From a virus: DNA of 21,053 nt. Position 1 is the stretch's first letter; each line of letters opens with the position of its first letter. The notes below the pieces were generated by a model. The model was not told where the DNA came from, did no database searches, and was given only the letters and a program-made list of their open reading frames with translations. This document shows positions 7,613 to 20,582 of the stretch, one piece after another. The DNA lies in the IMG/VR virus record IMGVR_UViG_3300034106_000428, positions 1 through 21,053 of that record. One strand, written 5' to 3'. A program made the position numbers and the translations under genes.

Positions 7613-8308
7613 TTAGTACCCCACGCCAGCAAAGTTAGACGGGTCGTAACGGCGGCTGTTAAGAGCCTGTTGCAGCAACGAGTTCTGCGCTTGACCCTGC
7701 TGATAGTTCATGTATTGGCCCAAGCCGCCAGTAATTGCGTTGGCTGCGCCCATGTAGCCAGATGCGCGGGCCTGAGCACCAGCACCAATGGTTTCAGCCA
7801 AGTTGGACCCAAACTGCCCGGCTTGTCCGGCAAGATTTTGCGCTGCGGTCTGACCAACGCCGGCCAGCGATTGCAACGGGTTAAGCCGCGCTTGGCGCTC
7901 GGATTGATAGCGGTTGAAGGCGTTCTGGTACTCTTGTGAGCCCATCTCCTGCCCGAACCGCGTCAGCGCCTTGCCGGTTGCGCCGCCCATCAGCCCGCCC
8001 CGCGCCGCAGCCGACCGCTCCAGCGCCTTCTGGCCCTCCGACAGCCTGAATGCGTAGCCAGGATCAGCCTGAAACTGTTGCATTCCAAATGGCGTGTATT
8101 CGGTTGCTAGCGGGATCAGCTTGTTAAGCGCCTGCTCACCAGCTTCACGGTAGGGTCTGCCCAGCTCAACCTGCCGCTCAAAAATCTCGCGCTGCACATC
8201 GGCAGCGCGGTCAGCAGCGGCGGCTTGCGCGTTGGCGGCGCTGCGGGAAGAACTTGCGCCAAGCAAAGAACTGCCGATAATCGCGGCGGGGATCATCCAT
8301 GCGGCCAT
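7613..8308 (-). CDS. DNA ejection protein (P22 gp7 position)
   Basis: 231 residues, almost the same length as P22 gp7 (about 229). A hydrophobic small-residue N-terminus (MAAWMIPAAIIGSSLLGASS) precedes a helix (ADRAADVQREIFERQVELGR). The section PGYAFRLSEGQKALERSAAA and GGLMGGATGKALTRFGQEMG is characteristic of a widespread phage virion protein annotated as DNA transfer/injection protein. The C-terminal half is Gln/Ala/Gly-rich. It has a strong AAGGAG ribosome site. It would be ejected early to help form the conduit across the envelope; that role is taken from the P22 system. Confidence 0.78.
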   Translation of the reverse strand: MAAWMIPAAIIGSSLLGASSSRSAANAQAAAADRAADVQREIFERQVELGRPYREAGEQALNKLIPLATEYTPFGMQQFQADPGYAFRLSEGQKALERSAAARGGLMGGATGKALTRFGQEMGSQEYQNAFNRYQSERQARLNPLQSLAGVGQTAAQNLAGQAGQFGSNLAETIGAGAQARASGYMGAANAITGGLGQYMNYQQGQAQNSLLQQALNSRRYDPSNFAGVGY

Positions 8309-8318
8309 GTCAGGCTCC

Positions 8319-8654
8319 TTAAGTCACTTCGCGTCCACTGACGCGCATGTTGATGGCGCTGGCAGTTCCAGCAATTGTACTGATGAAGTCGCCGATGCCA
8401 AGCACCTGGCCCACCAGTTCGGGGAAGGTGTACACCTCGGACGGCTGAAGCGTCTTGGTCTTGGTAATCAAGTTCTGATTGCCCGCCGAGCCAGCAGCCG
8501 TGACGAGGTTGACGCTGATCGTCGCGGCGGTGGCGCTGTAGTTCGTCGCCGTGAATTTGTCGATGATGGTCGTCACGCCAGTCGCGGTGTACTGGGTGGT
8601 TTGGCTGTTCTCGACCGTTTTGGCCGGAACGAGGACTTTGACGGTGACTGTCAT
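8319..8654 (-). CDS. hypothetical 111-aa beta-rich structural protein (P22 gene 14 position)
   Basis: The protein (MTVTVKVLVPAKTVENSQTT...) is rich in Thr, Val and Ala with alternating beta-strand patterns (TTIIDKFTATNYSATAATIS; KTLQPSEVYTFPELVGQVLG; ISTIAGTASAINMRVSGREV). It looks like a single beta-sandwich domain, similar in style to small virion proteins found beside tail genes in many phages. By position it lies where P22 has gene 14, but no sequence similarity to gp14 can be claimed from here. It starts 2 nt after the stop of the tail-needle candidate. Confidence 0.72.
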   Translation of the reverse strand: MTVTVKVLVPAKTVENSQTTQYTATGVTTIIDKFTATNYSATAATISVNLVTAAGSAGNQNLITKTKTLQPSEVYTFPELVGQVLGIGDFISTIAGTASAINMRVSGREVT

Positions 8655-8656
8655 GA

Positions 8657-9736
8657 CTAGACTCCCTGTAGTGTCGGCACAGAGGCTATCGACACAGTTA
8701 ATATGACTGACGGCGTGGCCGGACGAACTGGCCCGGTTTGTGCAGCAATGTACTGAATTGTAGTGGAGGCGTTAGTAGTTGCCCACATCAACTCAATGTA
8801 TTCGTCAGCGGCTAAATCGACGAACAGGTTTAGCGCGCCGATTAAGTGCCCGTCTGTGCCGCCGTGCCGATTGGGCACGGAAAACTGGCTGTTGGAGTCA
8901 GGCACATTTACACCGTTTTTACGCATCCAAATATCGGTGTCGTGAATGTTGTTGTCGGTGTTTACAAATTGAACGCTGAACTGAATGTTGTACGTCCCGG
9001 CAATCTCACACCTGACCTTGGACTTGCAGGTGCCGGTGATGGTCGTAGACGCTACGGTCTGCGACACGCTGACCTGATAGGTGCCAGTGCTGCCGTCCGT
9101 GCCTGTTAGCTGCGACACGATGCGAGTTCCAGCCGTAACGCCGGTGCCCGTGATCACCATGCCAGGGTAGATTGGCCCCGAGGTGATCGCTGTCACCGTC
9201 ATGGTGGTCGTGGCAATCGACGCAGTGAACACGGCTGTGCGGTCTTCTATCGTGACGTTTTTGCTGAACTGCGTGGTGTCGTACAGCAGCGGGTACGCCG
9301 TAGTTGTTGAGCCGTCTGGCTGGTTGGCCGTGCTGTAAAAGGAGCCGTATACAAATTGCGGAATCTGCGGCGTGGTAATCGGCGCAGACTGAAGTGCGTC
9401 GATCTGCTTTTGCATCTCGGCAATCTGCGACACCAAAGCCGAGCAGCAGTCTGCCAACGCTTCTGCTTGGATTTGCTTGGTCAACTCATCGCTCAAATCA
9501 GCCGCAGGCGGCAGCGTCTGCAACTCCTGATTGACTGCTTGAAGCGCGGCCTCAAGAGAGGCAATCGTTGACTCGGCGCTGAACGTAAGCCCCGAGTCGT
9601 CAATAACCGCTGCGGCCGCGTTGTTGAGCGACAGGAAGAACAAATACCAAGCCCTGTCGATCAACCCCGTGCGGGGGTCGATCAACGGCACCCGTGGCGG
9701 GGTGATTGGCGTCGGCGTCGCGTTAGGGCTAGGCAT
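8657..9736 (-). CDS. tail-needle/fibre-like protein with coiled coil and C1q/TNF-like knob
   Basis: 359 residues. Residues 1-40 are Pro-rich with [20 protein letters not shown], an opening common in phage tail-associated proteins. Residues about 52-118 are helical with heptad spacing ([40 protein letters not shown]), a likely trimeric coiled coil. Residues about 168-237 are a Thr/Gly/Ser-rich insert ([20 protein letters not shown] ...). Residues 238-359 form a beta-rich domain ([36 protein letters not shown]) reminiscent of C1q/TNF-type virion knobs. It starts inside the gp10-like gene (8-nt overlap), exactly where P22 has the tail needle gp26; Sf6 gp26 also ends in a TNF-like knob. The needle role is inferred from position and architecture. 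Confidence 0.75.
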
Positions 9737-11168
9737 TCGTTGGACTCAGAATCAACTCTGCGCCCATGATGCTGATCTTGACCGGATCGGTGCCCGATAG
9801 CTCATAAACGCGGTCGCGCAGCTTCAGGGTCATGCCCATGCGCCGCCAGAACACCCGGCGGTAGTACTCGCCGATCTTGCCGATCTGCGCCCAGTGCTCG
9901 TTGCCCCATGTGTGGCCGCCGTCGTCCGACCAGCGCAGCATGACCTCGGGGTTGCTGCCTTGGCCCAGATTCAGGCCAGTACCGGCCTCAATGTCCAGTT
10001 GCAGGCTGTGCTGCGCGGTGCGCTTGAGGTTGTTTTGGCCGGTGGGCAGCGCCCGCCACGACCGCAGCCACTTTTGAATCTGGCCGTTGTCCGAGTAGTC
10101 GTCCAGATCAAAGGCGTAGATGTTGCCGTTCTCGTAGTCGCCGACGACCACTTTGTTGTTGAACGCCATCTGGCAGTTGCTGCGGTGCCGGGTGAACTCG
10201 CCATTGCTCCAGCCAGCCCGCTCGTGCCAGGCTTGGGTGGCGGCGTCGTAGACCCAGGTCGTGTTGGCGCTCGGGAAGATCAGCACATAAAAGCTGTGGC
10301 CGTCCTGCTGGTAGGTGTACGCGATGGCGTCCGACAAATCGCTGTACTGCTGAATCTGCCACTCAACGGCGTGGGTGCTAATGCGCTGGCCGGTGTAGCC
10401 GTTGGCCCGGTAGACCATGCCTTGGCCCCGGCGGTCACGCCCAAGCCAGAACAAGGCGTTGTCCATCTTGGCAACCGAAAACGGGGCCGCGCAGCCCAGC
10501 TCGTTAAACGCGCCTTGGATGCGCTGGAGCGGGAAGTCGGTCGCGCCGGAGTCGTACCAAACTTCAATCGAGTTGGTGCCAAAGGCCCAGATTTCGCGGA
10601 AATTAGACGCCACGGCAACCAGCCCGTCAGGCGAGCCCTCGGTGCTGGCAAACTCCAGCGGGTCAATCGACGTGCCGTCCAGCAGCGCCGTGATCCACAT
10701 CTTTTGGCTGTTGGGCTGGTTGAAGACGAAGTAGCCGTCGAGATACGCCACGGTCACGGCGCCGGGAAAATCCGGGTCGGTGATCTGCCCAAAAGCGTTG
10801 GTCGTGTTGTTGTAGATGTAGCTCGGGCCGTTGGCCGCGATGAAAAGCTGCGTGCCGTTGTCGGCCATGCTGACTGGGCCGGTGCCTGCCACGGTGCCCA
10901 GCAGCGTCGGCGCGTAGCTGTTGTTGATCTTGTAGAGTTGCGTGCCCGACACCACAAAGCCGGTGCCGTCTTGCGGCGAGAAGGCCCACAGGCCACGGAT
11001 CGGGCCGGTGCCAATCGAGTTGAGCAGCTTCAGCCCCGGAGCGCGGTTTAGAAACGCCGGCTCCTTGCCCGCCTCGGGCACGATCTCGGGGAACAGGTTG
11101 ACCATGCGGGCGTCGGCAGCATTGACGCTGCGAGCCACATAGGTCGAACCAAGGATCGGCGTTTTCAT
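9729..11168 (-). CDS. P22 gp10-like packaged-DNA stabilisation (tail accessory) protein
   Basis: 479 residues, close to P22 gp10 (472). The opening [29 protein letters not shown] and [11 protein letters not shown] is the signature of this family (Phage_stabilise). Further typical segments are [37 protein letters not shown] and [18 protein letters not shown]. The protein is beta-rich (propeller-like repeats such as [25 protein letters not shown]). In P22, gp10 binds below gp4 to plug the portal and is the platform for the needle and tailspikes. Translation begins in an ATGA overlap with the 53-aa gene. Confidence 0.92.
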
Positions 11169-11328: not shown

Positions 11329-12060
11329 TCAATAGTTGCCGGCATAGATGTTGAACCGCTGCCGCGTGGCAATCAGCGAGTACGGCATCGACATCACATC
11401 GTCCGGGTTGTTGATGCGCTTGAGGTTGCGCTTGCTGTACATTGCAATTCGCTGCACTTGGGGACTTGGCTCGATGCCAAACTCCGGCGCGATCTCGCAG
11501 GCCAAGTTGTAGGTAAACGCCCGCAGGTAGCCTGGCGGGAACAGAATCTGGGTGGACAGATTGGCCGGCTGCGTCAGCTCTTGGACGCTGATAAAGTGGA
11601 ACTCCAGCAGCCGCGTCGGGCGCGGGTAGATGAAGATGTCAAAGTCCGGGTAGGTGTTGTTGACGAACATCACCTGCGGGTACGTCGAGGTCACGGTCTT
11701 GACCGCGATGCCGTCGTACTGCTGCTGGTTGATCAGCTTGATGCCGTACGACACGCCAGTGCCGGGGTCTTTGAAGTAGGTGGCGTCGTCCACCAGAATC
11801 GGGCGTACAGCAGTGCCGTTGAGCCGCACCAGCGAGCCGCTGGGGCCAAGGGTTGCGTTGATTAAGCCAACCGGCCAATTGCAAATCTGGTCGATGGTGG
11901 CAAAAACAGACAGGCGCTCGGTGTTCCACGAGTCGATCATCTGATTTAGCGCCATCAGGGAGTCCTGAGACACTGAGGCCGACGACGTTTCGCCCTCGGC
12001 TAGAACGCCTAGCAGCCGCAACGCCCGGTTAATCTGTTCGCCTGCGGTGTAGGTCGTCAT
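11329..12060 (-). CDS. P22 gp4-like head-completion / neck protein
   Basis: 243 residues. The opening MTTYTAGEQINRALRLLGVL followed by SQDSLMALNQMIDSWNTERL is typical of the gp4 (P22_Tail-4) family, an all-helical N-terminal domain. Other family-like sections are FHFISVQELTQPANLSTQIL, FPPGYLRAFTYNLACEIAPE and FGIEPSPQVQRIAMYSKRNL. P22 gp4 has about 166 residues; the extra ~75 residues here are a beta-rich insertion in the middle (VRLNGTAVRPILVDDATYFK ... GIKLINQQQYDGIAV). The protein binds the portal after packaging and starts tail assembly. The place between capsid and gp10-like genes agrees. Confidence 0.88.
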   Translation of the reverse strand: MTTYTAGEQINRALRLLGVLAEGETSSASVSQDSLMALNQMIDSWNTERLSVFATIDQICNWPVGLINATLGPSGSLVRLNGTAVRPILVDDATYFKDPGTGVSYGIKLINQQQYDGIAVKTVTSTYPQVMFVNNTYPDFDIFIYPRPTRLLEFHFISVQELTQPANLSTQILFPPGYLRAFTYNLACEIAPEFGIEPSPQVQRIAMYSKRNLKRINNPDDVMSMPYSLIATRQRFNIYAGNY

Positions 12061-14378: not shown

Positions 14379-15187
14379 CCAAATGTTCGCCAAGGTTCGT
14401 TACGCCTTGACCGCCCTTTCGGGCTGCTGCATGTCACCATGCAGAGCAGACTATCTCTTCACCCTCTTGCGAGGGGCTGTGCGCTTCCAGCCACTTGGCT
14501 GTACTCCCTTACGGGATAGTCGTTACACCTTCCGCTGGTGAGGACAAACGCCGCCGTTTCTGTGTTTGCCGACTTGACAATTCATACACAACACTTGGTA
14601 GCCTTGCGGAAACTTGCTCTTGCGAAGCCAATTGTAGAAGGCTGACCCTCCACCGTTGTACTTGCCTGATCTTCGTTCCTCAGCCCCATCATTGTTGATG
14701 TGGTCAATCGACAAAAACATTCGCTCAGTCTCTCCGCAGCAGTTGCACTTGTATCCGCCGTAGGCTTCAAACACTTGCTCTCTGCACCGGTCTTGATTGC
14801 GCTTGGTTTTCTCAGACTCTGCGGCGCGTATCGCGGCCACTTCCTCTGGCGTTCCATTTGCAATCTTCCGGTTGCGCCATTCACGCGAATGCTCTCGGGA
14901 CTTCTCCCTGTTTGCTTCACGCCAATCACGCATACGTTGATTGAACTTCTCTCGGTTGCGCTCTCGGTATCTGGCTGCGGCTTCGCGGTTTTTAGCCCGC
15001 TTGGCCTCGACATCTACCTCACTATTCTCACTTTTGGCTTGGCTCGGTGTTTTCATGTAATCATCTTACATGACGTCCACCGAATTCACACAGTTTTTTT
15101 CCTAGGGTTACCCCTAGGGGAGACCGATTAGTTAATCTCCAGAGCCTTCCGGGTGATCATGTCAATTGTCAAGATTGAGTTAGCCAT
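13232..15187 (-). CDS. major capsid (coat) protein, P22-type, split by a group I intron
   Basis: Join of 15187-15135 and 14378-13232, 399 residues after splicing. Exon 1 encodes MANSILTIDMITRKALE plus two bases of an Ile codon; exon 2 supplies its last base and continues LENNLVLTRNVNRQYDDSFA. This is the conserved opening of the P22 coat-like family (MANS.LT.DMIT..AL.IL...L....NR.YD..FA..GAKIG). Later family features are LDDFAERVLKPRISQLASSI and GDVFTIADVYAVNPQTREST. The protein has the HK97 fold and forms the icosahedral shell with the help of the upstream scaffold. Without splicing, translation stops at an in-frame TAA after 19 codons. Ribosome site AAAGGAA at about 15198-15204. The open frame upstream of 14378 (to 14440) is intron sequence. 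Confidence 0.92.
14523..15056 (-). CDS. intron-encoded HNH homing endonuclease
   Basis: 177 residues. The N-terminal 65 residues are highly basic and contain repeated NREK/RDWREANREK-type units (RYRERNREKFNQRMRDWREA; REKSREHSREW), a pattern seen in DNA-binding parts of phage HNH proteins. The HNH domain covers about 95-175. It has CNCC (104-107), the catalytic strand LSIDHINNDG with D118-H119, then VLCMNCQVGKH (C157, C160) and CPHQ (C171, H173), which fit a structural zinc site. It would nick or cut the intronless capsid gene and spread the intron by homing. ATG 15056 is inside P5/P4 of the intron and TAA 14525-14523 touches P7, so the entire gene lies within the ribozyme. No clear ribosome site is seen. 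Confidence 0.93.
   Translation of the reverse strand: MKTPSQAKSENSEVDVEAKRAKNREAAARYRERNREKFNQRMRDWREANREKSREHSREWRNRKIANGTPEEVAAIRAAESEKTKRNQDRCREQVFEAYGGYKCNCCGETERMFLSIDHINNDGAEERRSGKYNGGGSAFYNWLRKSKFPQGYQVLCMNCQVGKHRNGGVCPHQRKV
15044..15083 (-). promoter_or_regulatory. P4-P5 stem of the intron covering the HNH start codon
   Basis: TCGGTG (15083-15078 when read on the minus strand) pairs with CACCGA (15049-15044), and inside it CATGTAA (15072-15066) pairs with TTACATG (15060-15054) around a 5-nt loop. The HNH start ATG (15056-15054) ends the P5 3' strand and codons 2-5 form J5/4 and P4. A folded intron would hide this start from ribosomes, so endonuclease synthesis should compete with splicing. 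Confidence 0.65.
15135..15187 (-). other. capsid gene exon 1 (53 nt)
   Basis: ATG 15187-15185 begins the coat protein. The last six bases, GGAGAT (15140-15135), form P1 with the intron guide. Reading on into the intron gives ATT AAC TAA, so an unspliced mRNA encodes only a 19-residue peptide. Confidence 0.88.
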
Positions 15188-16305: not shown

Positions 16306-17709
16306 TCAATAAATTTCCACAACAATCTGACCGCGCCAAGACACGGTTGCGCCAGAAGCAAAAGTCGACGAATCACCTTTGCGGGAGTAAATTAAATTGT
16401 CGCTTGTAGAGCCAAACATAAGCCCGATTGACGATGCGCCCCCCACATACAAAACACAAGTTGCATTTGCTACTTTTTTTATGCCTGTAATTCCCGATAT
16501 GGCGGGCAGCGAAAAGATCAAACTTTGCGGCGTAACTGCGTTTAATGTCGCAGAAAAAGAAAAGTCAATAAACAAACTTTTGCCGATTTGTTTGTACTGA
16601 CAATTGTTAATCGTTACTGAGCCAGAAAATGTCGTAGCAGCGTTTCCTACGTCACTGGAGAATGTAGGTGTGTAAGACCTGTACGCCCCCAACACGCCGT
16701 AATCGCCGTTGCCTGAATCGGACAGCGTAGACAAATAGCTCAGGTAAGTAGACCAATTATCAGTAACCCCCACCGCGCTGTTTGTAATTAACACGGCCCC
16801 TGGATACGCTTGGGCTAGTCTTGGGTTGTTGACGTAAAACCCCGATACTTCGGCGCCGCTTAACTTGATGGCTTTTGCCGCAGTCCCGCCAGAGTTAGTC
16901 GAGAAAAATGTGCCATCTACGATGGGGCGCAAAGTTCTGCCCGATCCCGTCCCAACCACAGACATATGGAACTGGGCGGGGTTGTTGTTGTAGTTTGCTT
17001 CAAACCAGCAACCAATAATGTAAATATCAAGCACATCGCGGTTAGAGGTGTCCGTAATGTACAAGCCTTCTTGCCCGCTGGACTCAAAATCGGTGTTTAC
17101 AAAGTACAGACCGTAGCCATCGACAAGTTTTGCGCCGTACAGACTGTTGGTTGTAAAGACGCAAGAGTCAAACAGCAGCGTCGTGGGGAAAGAGTCAGAC
17201 ACAGCTTGTTGAACCAACAAGCCAATTTCGTTCAGTTCTGACGTAACTTTTGTAAAGTTTGTTTTTAGAGCTTTGTCGATGCGAACACCCACGCCGCCAG
17301 TGCCGCTAAAATTTTTGACGCGCAAATTGCGGAACTCGCCAGCTATTGACCCACCATCACCAAAGAAGATTCCGGTTGCGGTTGGACAGGATGATCCTTC
17401 AACTTGGAACCCGTCAAGTATGTTTGGGTACGAAGCCCCGCCGCCGATTGCGATTGCTTTAGTCACAGCAGCAGTCGGCTTGATAATTGTTGCAAGCTCT
17501 CCGTCGCCAATTATTTCTGAACACAAAGGCCGCAACGTAGACGAAATTTTGTATGTGCCGGTGGGAAGATAAATGGATTTTCCCGCTTGCGCCATAGCCG
17601 TGCTTAACGCGCTAGTGCTGTCAATGTTTCCGGTTGGGTCAGCCCCATAGTCAAGGACGTTTACGGGCGCACCCGTAATCATTGAGTAGCTGACTTTGGT
17701 GAGGCTCAT
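16306..17709 (-). CDS. tailspike with pectate-lyase-like beta-helix (467 aa)
   Basis: The short N-terminus MSLTKVSYSMITGAPVNVLD continues YGADPTGNIDSTSALSTAMA, the start of a Pectate_lyase_3 beta-helix domain (about 16-330), with rungs such as IFFGDGGSIAGEFRNLRVKN and DIYIIGCWFEANYNNN. Residues about 342-467 (YRSYTPTFSSDVGN ... CQYKQIGKSLFIDFSFSA ... IVVEIY) form a separate beta domain with the Y.PT ... Y...G plan of trimeric spike ends. Such spikes bind and often cleave surface polysaccharide; catalytic residues cannot be picked by eye. The very short N-terminus lacks a head-binding domain, so it may dock on another spike. Ribosome site AAGGAT at 17714-17719. Confidence 0.85.
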   Translation of the reverse strand: MSLTKVSYSMITGAPVNVLDYGADPTGNIDSTSALSTAMAQAGKSIYLPTGTYKISSTLRPLCSEIIGDGELATIIKPTAAVTKAIAIGGGASYPNILDGFQVEGSSCPTATGIFFGDGGSIAGEFRNLRVKNFSGTGGVGVRIDKALKTNFTKVTSELNEIGLLVQQAVSDSFPTTLLFDSCVFTTNSLYGAKLVDGYGLYFVNTDFESSGQEGLYITDTSNRDVLDIYIIGCWFEANYNNNPAQFHMSVVGTGSGRTLRPIVDGTFFSTNSGGTAAKAIKLSGAEVSGFYVNNPRLAQAYPGAVLITNSAVGVTDNWSTYLSYLSTLSDSGNGDYGVLGAYRSYTPTFSSDVGNAATTFSGSVTINNCQYKQIGKSLFIDFSFSATLNAVTPQSLIFSLPAISGITGIKKVANATCVLYVGGASSIGLMFGSTSDNLIYSRKGDSSTFASGATVSWRGQIVVEIY

Positions 17710-18542: not shown

Positions 18543-20582
18543 TTATGTCAGTCGGTATACGATTTGGCACTGCTGCACACCCTTAGTTCCGCTGCCCGTA
18601 AATGTCCCGGACGTTCCATTATTAAATGTGATGACGCCAGCAGACGAAACTTCTACCCACGATATGACGTTGTTTCCGTTATCAGTGGCTACGCCAACAT
18701 CACGCTGCGTGGCTGATGGATAGATTGCAGAAGGTAGCCCTGTCAGGGTGGGGGCGTTAGTATTTGCGCTAGTGCCGTTAATAGCAGTTGGAACCGTGAT
18801 AGTTACAATATCGCCGTTGAGATCGTATTTTACAGTTCCTGTAACTGAACCTGAAACGCCGGTCAATGTAGCAGTAAAGGTACCCTTAGTGCGTAAGCGC
18901 GAAACTACATCGTCTGTGCTTGATAGCACGTAGCTATTCGTAAAGCCAGAAGCAAAATTGTTGGTGAATGTTACTGCGCTGTTTGCGCTTAAAGTTTTAT
19001 ATCCGTCAACGGTAGCACCCGTAGCGTAGCAGCCAATGACCATGCCTACAGACGCTGGGTTAAGCCCGCTGTCATCAAAACGCATAGCTGTTCTATAGCC
19101 AACAGCATCTCCTGCGCCGTTATTCAGCATTTTGATGCCAGAATACAAAAAGTTTTGCGCTGCTGACGTAATAACGCCTGACTTCGTATTACCGCTGACT
19201 ACGCCGCCTATGATAGTGAGATTACACGCAGTGTTGTTGATACCAACGCCAGTAGAATTGGTACAGACGCAGCCGATTGCAATGCCGTCATTAGCAGAAC
19301 CGCCAGCCGATTGTTCCCAATGGACGCCAGCGCCAGACTGCCCAAAATCGGCGCGGTTATCGTTAGCCGTAACCGACACGCGACAGCCAGAAGCCGTTGT
19401 TGCAGCCCCGCTGGCCTCTACAGCCACACCGATGCAGTTATCGTGATAGTAGCCGTAGATCGTAGCGCGGTCATGGTTAAACACATAAAAGCCGTAACCA
19501 GCCGCCGCTATTCCGTTTGAATAGCACGTATTTCGTGCACTGGTAGAAGCGCCGGAACCGCCAGATAGAACAACGCCAGTGCCACGGCAATTGTATATTT
19601 CAACATCAAAATATGGGTTGTCGCACTTAGTAAAAATTATGCCGTGAACTACAGATGTTTGATTGGTGTAGTTTCCATCTATGCTGAAATTGCTAAGTTT
19701 AATGTTTGGATTTCCAGCCACCGTGTTTGCGTTGTCAAACACACTTGCGTTAGAACCGTTTATCAACTTAAAAATAGTGCTTTGAAATCCGGCCCCTACA
19801 ACACAATTGTTGTCGTTCAACGTAAGTCCACTAACCATGTACGTACCCGCAGGCACATACACCTGAAGCGCCGTGTCTAACGCAGCTTGAATAGCCACCG
19901 TATCGTTCGTTACGCCATCGCCGACAGCACCAAAGTCTTTGACCGAGACGTATTGCGCCAGCTTGTCTTCAACATTCGTTACTACAGACCCCGCAAACGG
20001 TGGGTCATAGGTCACCTGAGATGCGTCTCCAACACTAGCGTTCTGCAACTGGCTTGTGGTGAACTTGACCTCAGCGCCAACATGCAAGCCAGACACAAAC
20101 GTCACTGTGTCAGCGTCAGTCTCAAGGTAAGCGTATTGGGCACCTGGGCCGTACTGGTTCACGCCGTCCACAAACACCGACAGGCTGTTGGTGCCTGGCG
20201 CGTAGCTGATGCCAAGATTAAACACCGTCTGGCCTGCGGTGGCCGTGACGATTTCTTGCTGATTGACGAAAGAAACAAAATTGCTGTTGATGCCGCTGAT
20301 GTTGTCGTAGGTGGCGATCAGAACGTCGTTGGCGTCCTTGAGCAAAAACTTGTACAGCAGCCCGTCGGTTATCCAAATCTCGCCGCTACCGGACACCCGG
20401 CCAGCAGCATCCAACACGATGGGATTGGTCCAAGCAGTAGAACCGTTGGATGATGTGTAAGCGGCCACGGGCGTGGTGGTGCCAGCCGCGTAAGTGAACA
20501 GCTTGCCGCCCGTCAGGACAGCGCCGGTGTTGGTGAAGAACTGGGCCGCAACGCCGCCCACTGGGGAAAGATTGACGGCCAT
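18543..20582 (-). CDS. large tailspike with N-terminal attachment domain and beta-helix (679 aa)
   Basis: Residues 1-100 (LSPVGGVAAQFFTNTGAVLT, GGKLFTYAAGTTTPVAAYTS ... WTNPIVLDAAGRVSGSGEIW) are the attachment domain common to many podovirus spikes, like the head-binding domain of P22 gp9 in role. Residues about 105-180 form a linker beta domain (GQTVFNLGISYAPGTNSLSV). The beta-helix begins at 213 with VSVKDFGAVGDGVTNDTVAI (Pectate_lyase_3). The C-terminal domain (about 562-679: RTKGTFTATLTGVSGSVTGT, VKYDLNGDIVTITVPTAING) resembles those of the two following proteins. It is the only one of the three with a full virion-attachment region, so it is probably the anchor spike. GGAG ribosome site overlaps the end of the 54-aa gene. 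Confidence 0.88.
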   Translation of the reverse strand: MAVNLSPVGGVAAQFFTNTGAVLTGGKLFTYAAGTTTPVAAYTSSNGSTAWTNPIVLDAAGRVSGSGEIWITDGLLYKFLLKDANDVLIATYDNISGINSNFVSFVNQQEIVTATAGQTVFNLGISYAPGTNSLSVFVDGVNQYGPGAQYAYLETDADTVTFVSGLHVGAEVKFTTSQLQNASVGDASQVTYDPPFAGSVVTNVEDKLAQYVSVKDFGAVGDGVTNDTVAIQAALDTALQVYVPAGTYMVSGLTLNDNNCVVGAGFQSTIFKLINGSNASVFDNANTVAGNPNIKLSNFSIDGNYTNQTSVVHGIIFTKCDNPYFDVEIYNCRGTGVVLSGGSGASTSARNTCYSNGIAAAGYGFYVFNHDRATIYGYYHDNCIGVAVEASGAATTASGCRVSVTANDNRADFGQSGAGVHWEQSAGGSANDGIAIGCVCTNSTGVGINNTACNLTIIGGVVSGNTKSGVITSAAQNFLYSGIKMLNNGAGDAVGYRTAMRFDDSGLNPASVGMVIGCYATGATVDGYKTLSANSAVTFTNNFASGFTNSYVLSSTDDVVSRLRTKGTFTATLTGVSGSVTGTVKYDLNGDIVTITVPTAINGTSANTNAPTLTGLPSAIYPSATQRDVGVATDNGNNVISWVEVSSAGVITFNNGTSGTFTGSGTKGVQQCQIVYRLT

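Follow-up and report, generated by a model that had tools for sequence, protein, structure and literature searches.

The gene at 8657-9736 belongs to a virus record 21,053 bases long, the whole of which is referred to here as the window. The 359-residue product of this gene most likely serves as the needle that terminates a short phage tail, and a Thr/Gly-rich beta module is nested inside its predicted C1q/TNF-like knob. The explanation that accounts best for the entire set of results, and which we consider probable, is a needle of the P22/SU10 type whose Sf6-like knob bears a promiscuous virion domain. The gene and its relevant neighbors are as follows.

8657..9736, minus strand: tail-needle gene, 359 amino acids, stop codon included, assigned from the ORF call, its place after the gp10/nozzle gene and the 80 best relatives
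9729..11168, minus strand: gp10-like head-closure/nozzle gene, the expected needle socket (phrog_578, PF11134)
11329..12060, minus strand: gp4-like adaptor gene (PF11650, P22_Tail-4; phrog_12985)
8319..8654, minus strand: small gene of 111 amino acids adjoining the needle gene on its downstream side (weak PHROG matches, best E 0.026)
7613..8308, minus strand: gp7-like DNA-ejection protein (phrog_598)

The needle place is assigned because the adaptor gene and the phrog_578/Phage_stabilise gene precede this ORF and an ejection gene follows it. The ORF is located directly downstream of a gene matching the phrog_578 head closure protein Hc3 (E 2.2e-138) and PF11134 (Phage_stabilise), and the order adaptor, gp10/Hc3, needle is the one found in P22-like and SU10-like blocks. 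The same order is present in two complete phage genomes from Manatee Spring (MW202462 and MW202481), in which similar knob genes follow a gene for a "phage stabilization protein". SU10, as described in PMC9509320, likewise has adaptor (gp11), nozzle (gp17) and needle (gp18) parts with a coiled-coil needle, and its adaptor family, PF24175, is matched by two of the adaptors that we collected (L232 and L385); however, the SU10 needle ends in a beta-prism, while the window protein ends in a C1q/TNF jelly roll.

We picked the 80 best virus loci by their gp10 gene, blind to the needle. The next ORF after gp10 shares its first ~120 residues across these loci and varies in the remainder: 52 of the 80 encode complete proteins with a spike-type end, 12 have other ends, four carry a knob with the module and two a knob without it, while eight are cut and two are without an anchored ORF that we could find. 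The presence of variable ends behind a shared anchor indicates that the C-terminus of the needle is its exchangeable part. All such counts refer to the best-scoring 80 loci taken per scan rather than to a random sample; many of the loci come from shared contigs and overlap one another, and each set of identical proteins contributed a single count. Of six module-bearing knobs with other stems or a divergent anchor for which the upstream gene was determined, four follow phrog_3287 (L195, L206, L216 and L217), one follows phrog_578 (L213) and one an HNH endonuclease (L204). At L204:2003-2704 and L439:2141-2704, HNH endonuclease genes directly precede knob genes and are possibly tied to knob exchange. 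In the window, the ORF at 14523-15056 (minus strand) shows a CNCC...HINNDG...CMNCQ pattern that looks HNH-endonuclease-like by eye.

Every ORF of the retrieved loci was scanned with four profiles, one each for the anchor, the first knob part, the module and the second knob part. In the window the parts are:

9377..9736, minus strand: N-terminal anchor and helical stem, residues 1-120, common to needles with very different C-termini; helices in the model
9239..9370, minus strand: first knob part (C1q/TNF-like), residues 123-166, ending at the interrupted hairpin; placed from profiles, junction and model
9032..9232, minus strand: Thr/Gly-rich beta module inserted within the knob, residues 169-235 by the HMM core; placed from profiles, model and HMM
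8660..9028, minus strand: second knob part, residues 237-359; placed from profiles, model and fold comparison

The AlphaFold monomer model predicts helices at residues 28-45, 54-73 and 82-117, and therefore an elongated helical stem between the N-terminal anchor and the distal domain, the confidence being modest there (residues 71-120, block pLDDT 52-80). The knob is well modelled (block pLDDT 91-98, residues 151-350) and corresponds to a C1q/TNF jelly roll, matching C1q, BclA-type and TNF-type chains with Z of about 14-16.7 and rmsd mostly 2.1-3.0 A over ~125-140 residues; the Sf6/HS1 knob is absent among the 50 structure matches listed. Gene order, predicted helices and the jelly-roll match thus bear out the sequence-only reading in so far as it recognized an ORF in the needle position with a stem and a C1q/TNF-like knob. 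At the level of sequence, similarity to the P22 gp26 and Sf6 needles was found neither in Pfam, nor in PHROG, nor in the PDB: Pfam and PHROG gave no needle-family match for the 359-residue protein, NCBIfam gave only a chance match to a coiled coil, and the PDB search returned no chain at E up to 1 with either the needle protein or a 62-sequence profile. Since solved structures are without a sequence match, the protein is named needle-like by its position and architecture and is not presented as a member of the gp26 family.

The lack of a sequence match between solved needles and this product also suits another interpretation, namely that the gene encodes a short side fibre or spike after gp10 and no axial needle. 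The ends found behind the same anchor are often spike-like, and Foldseek comparison with viral models leads to proteins named tail fibres. Yet the gene directly follows gp10/nozzle, as the needle gene gp18 is paired with nozzle gp17 in SU10 (PMC9509320), two separate pectate-lyase-type spike genes are already encoded elsewhere in the window (16306-17709 and 18543-20582), and a helical stem with a small knob is the arrangement of Sf6-type needles. We therefore regard a side fibre or spike as unlikely and retain the axial needle. The best viral fold match is the BFVD entry A0A6J5S2W8, a protein of 292 amino acids (36% identity) that is named as a lambda Stf side tail fibre repeat. To judge from this length, it may be a needle relative lacking the module, in which case the name misleads.

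The module is recognized by its HMM at residues 169-235 (E 1.4e-32), close to the residues 168-237 proposed earlier for a Thr/Gly-rich beta module, and this is the sole significant match among the 70 window ORFs scanned. That reading had placed the module between the coiled coil and the knob. Residues 123-166, however, are already part of the knob, and both the models and the module-less relatives place the module inside the jelly roll. The window knob aligns with the C1q domain of Caprin-2 (4ous) with Z 15.7 and 2.2 A over 132 residues that extend across model residues 127-354, whereas the module-less knob of L045 aligns with the same structure with Z 15.5 over 132 residues within 145-295. 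The fact that 132 residues match in both, but over a longer span of the window model, implies that the module is nested inside the jelly roll, and the ~77 extra residues of the window knob relative to L045 correspond to the module plus its junction. In the window model two long strands (161-186 and 218-243) occupy the place where the L045 model has short strands (172-181 and 188-190). In the models, the module is at the tip of a predicted beta hairpin within the jelly roll, where L045 has a short turn; judging from strand order, the interrupted hairpin would be A'-B'. A position of the module between coil and knob was dropped after the two models and the 4ous alignments.

The junction itself is constant. 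Knobs of the module-less L045 type read GVYLGTPTS directly followed by RVYV, and the window protein reads NVTIEDRTA, the module, and TCKSKVRC, so the interruption of the join at NVTIED was correctly recognized from the letters. It could still be argued that the segment is an integral elaboration of the knob family and no inserted domain, given that the close relatives all have it. This is hardly credible, and is already contradicted by the wider sample: the same knob lacks the segment in 151 of the 229 cases in which both knob halves are readable, the junction measures 4-7 residues in all 152 module-less knobs measured, and unrelated proteins contain the same domain, in one case a nozzle protein with a clean insertion of 69 residues. 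The second knob part, cut proteins included, occurs with the module in 81 distinct proteins and without it in 156. The claim that the module was inserted is accordingly upheld by relatives with clean short junctions. One needle, L059:5532-6542 (plus strand), has a module-less knob that carries a different insert (IFINGVYQDKNTYTLVGTTVTF..., residues ~211-290) in another loop, which means that at least two knob loops accept insertions. This insert resembles a different tail-fibre module; its similarity to the window ORF 18543-20582 (29%, E 0.008 in a two-sequence comparison) is too weak to support a claim.

Outside needles, the module is carried by several classes of virion proteins. We found it in minor head proteins (L212 and L221, phrog_2122), in adaptors (L232 and L385, phrog_12985 and SU10_adaptor PF24175) and in a tail sheath (L220, phrog_205, DUF3383). 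The adaptor copies are all located at one site, as a single module in L385 and L227 and as two tandem modules in four gp4/SU10-type adaptors:

L232:2569-3762, adaptor with tandem modules
L223:1770-2963, adaptor with tandem modules
L226:2569-3732, adaptor with tandem modules
L233:2569-3750, adaptor with tandem modules

The nozzle insertion is found in L437:70-1704 (plus strand), a phrog_3287 protein in the nozzle place that carries the module at residues 135-199 and is encoded directly before a module-less C1q needle; the 69 residues are absent from the corresponding proteins of L453, L455 and L435. Scanning bacterial and archaeal genomes turned up 64 loci, 62 of which have the module by HMM, in 71 proteins, and none of which has a window-type knob. 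Ten of these 71 proteins that were examined comprise three tail sheaths, a minor head/cement protein, a tail terminator and a protein that PHROG assigns to head structure, the others being an RHS protein, a GH5 cellulase, one protein with weak tail-fibre matches and one with nothing beyond the module. The recurrence of the module in unrelated bacterial and phage proteins, as had been anticipated, thus holds for adaptor, nozzle, sheath, terminator, minor head, RHS and GH5 types. Among named phages, a tblastn search with the module alone gave one match in 50,697 records, a number that the low-complexity filter may have lowered by masking others.

No Pfam family describes the module (Big_6 is reached by two of 13 modules, best E 0.026), and NCBIfam returned no module family for three module-bearing proteins, a needle, a nozzle and a sheath protein. 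The module profile had one match in the PDB, at E 0.14, which was judged to be chance. A stretch of phrog_21413 and of phrog_38233 is matched by the module, but these are groups of whole proteins of unknown or tail-fibre annotation and hold no description of the module as a domain. Three peptide words of the module did not occur in the literature searched, and the titles and abstract beginnings of the openly accessible papers listed contain no description of it. The closest parallel is provided by the promiscuous Ig-like domains of tailed phages (Fraser et al. 2006, as cited in PMC9022992), small beta domains which are reported there on several classes of virion structural proteins, sometimes between strands and often with an unclear role; in comparison, Big_6 is reached by two of the 13 modules, so that the module is at most a candidate Ig-type domain, and it has been seen in needle, nozzle, adaptor, sheath, terminator and minor head proteins. 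The chances appear about even that it represents an uncatalogued, promiscuous beta domain of ~65 residues, inserted in loops of consecutive components of a single tail machine, namely adaptor, nozzle and needle knob, and of sheath, terminator and head proteins, which would serve as a general virion accessory in the manner of Ig-like domains and has become a fixed part of the needle tip.

The age of the insertion was examined on a knob tree from which the module and junction columns were excluded. Before the 229 knobs were assembled, L059 was dropped, together with knobs whose second half was shorter than 90 residues or whose first half was too short or undetected; dereplication at 95% identity within label then removed 97 of the 229 and left 132 rows. 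Module presence requires two changes on this tree, while the mean for shuffled labels is ~34 and none of 500 shuffles was as low. The 40 module-bearing rows cluster, with a single module-less row, L382, on a long branch inside them, and in the starred sets around the window, which comprise 2, 15 and 29 rows, every member carries the module. L382 is PQ492659.1, Limnohabitans phage DC33, which is listed under Inoviridae despite a genome of 39 kb; its C1q-like, module-less protein is the best named-phage match. Among the sampled knobs, the module-less knob closest to the window is that of L401, at 50% identity, and the closest pair with and without the module is L214 and L439, at 65%.

Synonymous divergence was measured in 69 of the 76 complete module-bearing needles, those with a P22-type anchor, and in a subset of 14 close needles. 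Among the 14, pS is 0.155 for the module, 0.172 for the anchor, 0.093 for the first knob part and 0.152 for the second; among the 69 the corresponding values are 0.573, 0.644, 0.646 and 0.667. A recent spread would leave a clearly lower pS in the module, and values near those of the flanks therefore speak against it. Distances between modules follow those between knobs (r 0.90 overall, permutation maximum 0.41), and for 40 of 40 knobs all modules of other proteins are more distant than the best module of a distant knob. Resolution in the module tree is low, six of its 68 inner branches being starred; by itself this tree leaves the knob modules ungrouped, but a grouping of them is not rejected (p 0.638). 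The knob tree, pS and the stem types support one old insertion into the knob lineage, after which the module would have been inherited with the knob, perhaps with one loss. Because the correlation falls to r 0.28 among distant knobs (363 pairs) and the module tree is poorly resolved, an ancient re-insertion into the same knob site is also possible.

A recent gain of the module is not supported by the knob tree or by the synonymous divergence. The original suggestion had been that of a recently acquired host-contact domain between coil and knob, and its starting points, a promiscuous module and the existence of module-less knobs, are confirmed; nevertheless, with the module inside the knob, only two changes on the tree, all 29 of 29 starred rows carrying it, and a pS of 0.155 and 0.573 (14 and 69 needles) against 0.152 and 0.667 in the second knob part, we consider recent acquisition very improbable.

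The host-contact part of that suggestion is doubtful, given that purifying selection on the module is strong (dN/dS 0.041 in the 14 close needles and 0.093 in the 69) and that the module is shared with adaptor, nozzle, sheath and head proteins. Across the 69 needles no other part is better conserved, the mean amino-acid difference being 0.13 for the module, compared to 0.30 and 0.25 in the two knob parts and 0.48 in the anchor; within the 14 close needles, in which the first knob part shows no amino-acid change, the module comes second at 0.009. Conservation and purifying selection also led us to reject the module as a hypervariable host-contact patch. A related proposal is that the module is a glycan- or envelope-binding adhesion domain, old in the knob, which makes host contact at the tip. 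Its location in a predicted knob that is likely distal and exposed would be consistent with such a role, as would its occurrence in GH5-cellulase-type and RHS proteins, and PMC3909814 and PMC7468147 class the C1q-domain proteins that they describe in marine and cryoconite phages as variable receptor-binding proteins. The window protein resembles these in having a C1q-like domain in a variable tail gene, but differs from such variable, host-recognising proteins in its needle place and in the conserved module nested in its knob. In addition to this, the dN/dS values, the greater conservation of the module than of the rest of the knob over the 69 needles, and its presence in adaptor, nozzle, sheath, terminator and minor head proteins argue against adhesion, as does the P22 knob swap that, according to PMC3741392, left host range unchanged. 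We thus view an adhesion domain as possible but doubtful. High conservation and low dN/dS favor an accessory, tip-stabilising or weakly adhesive role over a role in specificity, and most likely the module is an accessory surface domain that would enlarge and stabilise the tip, or provide weak general adhesion, and so modulate DNA delivery.

We propose that the N-terminal anchor plugs the channel of the adjoining gp10/nozzle protein, that a trimeric coiled-coil stem projects from the tail, and that the jelly roll predicted in the monomer model forms the distal tip. One hairpin of this jelly roll would hold the nested ~67-residue beta module of the promiscuous kind, which probably entered the knob lineage once, long ago, and has since been passed on with the knob, knobs with and without it having presumably been joined to different needle stems. 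The accessory domain would then modulate how the tip leads DNA delivery and would not act as a fast-evolving determinant of specificity. The Sf6/HS1 needle, as described in PMC3741392, is similar in having its gene in a P22-like virion block and a C-terminal TNF-like knob that is exchangeable between stems, and it differs from the window protein in that the window knob has a second, nested domain and is without a sequence match to any PDB chain. The Sf6-type TNF-like knob is suggested in PMC3741392 to be a recent arrival in the P22-like group.

The position of the module outside Pfam and NCBIfam models is a gap that hampers the annotation of environmental phages, and its occurrence in nozzle, adaptor and sheath proteins as well points to an accessory module of general use on virions. 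In P22, according to PMC3741392, the needle tip is unnecessary for host specificity and affects how fast DNA is delivered; needle tips are considered to influence the kinetics of genome delivery, with the contribution of the knob unsettled in that account. Natural needles with related anchors and knobs exist both with and without the nested domain, and its effect is therefore directly testable.
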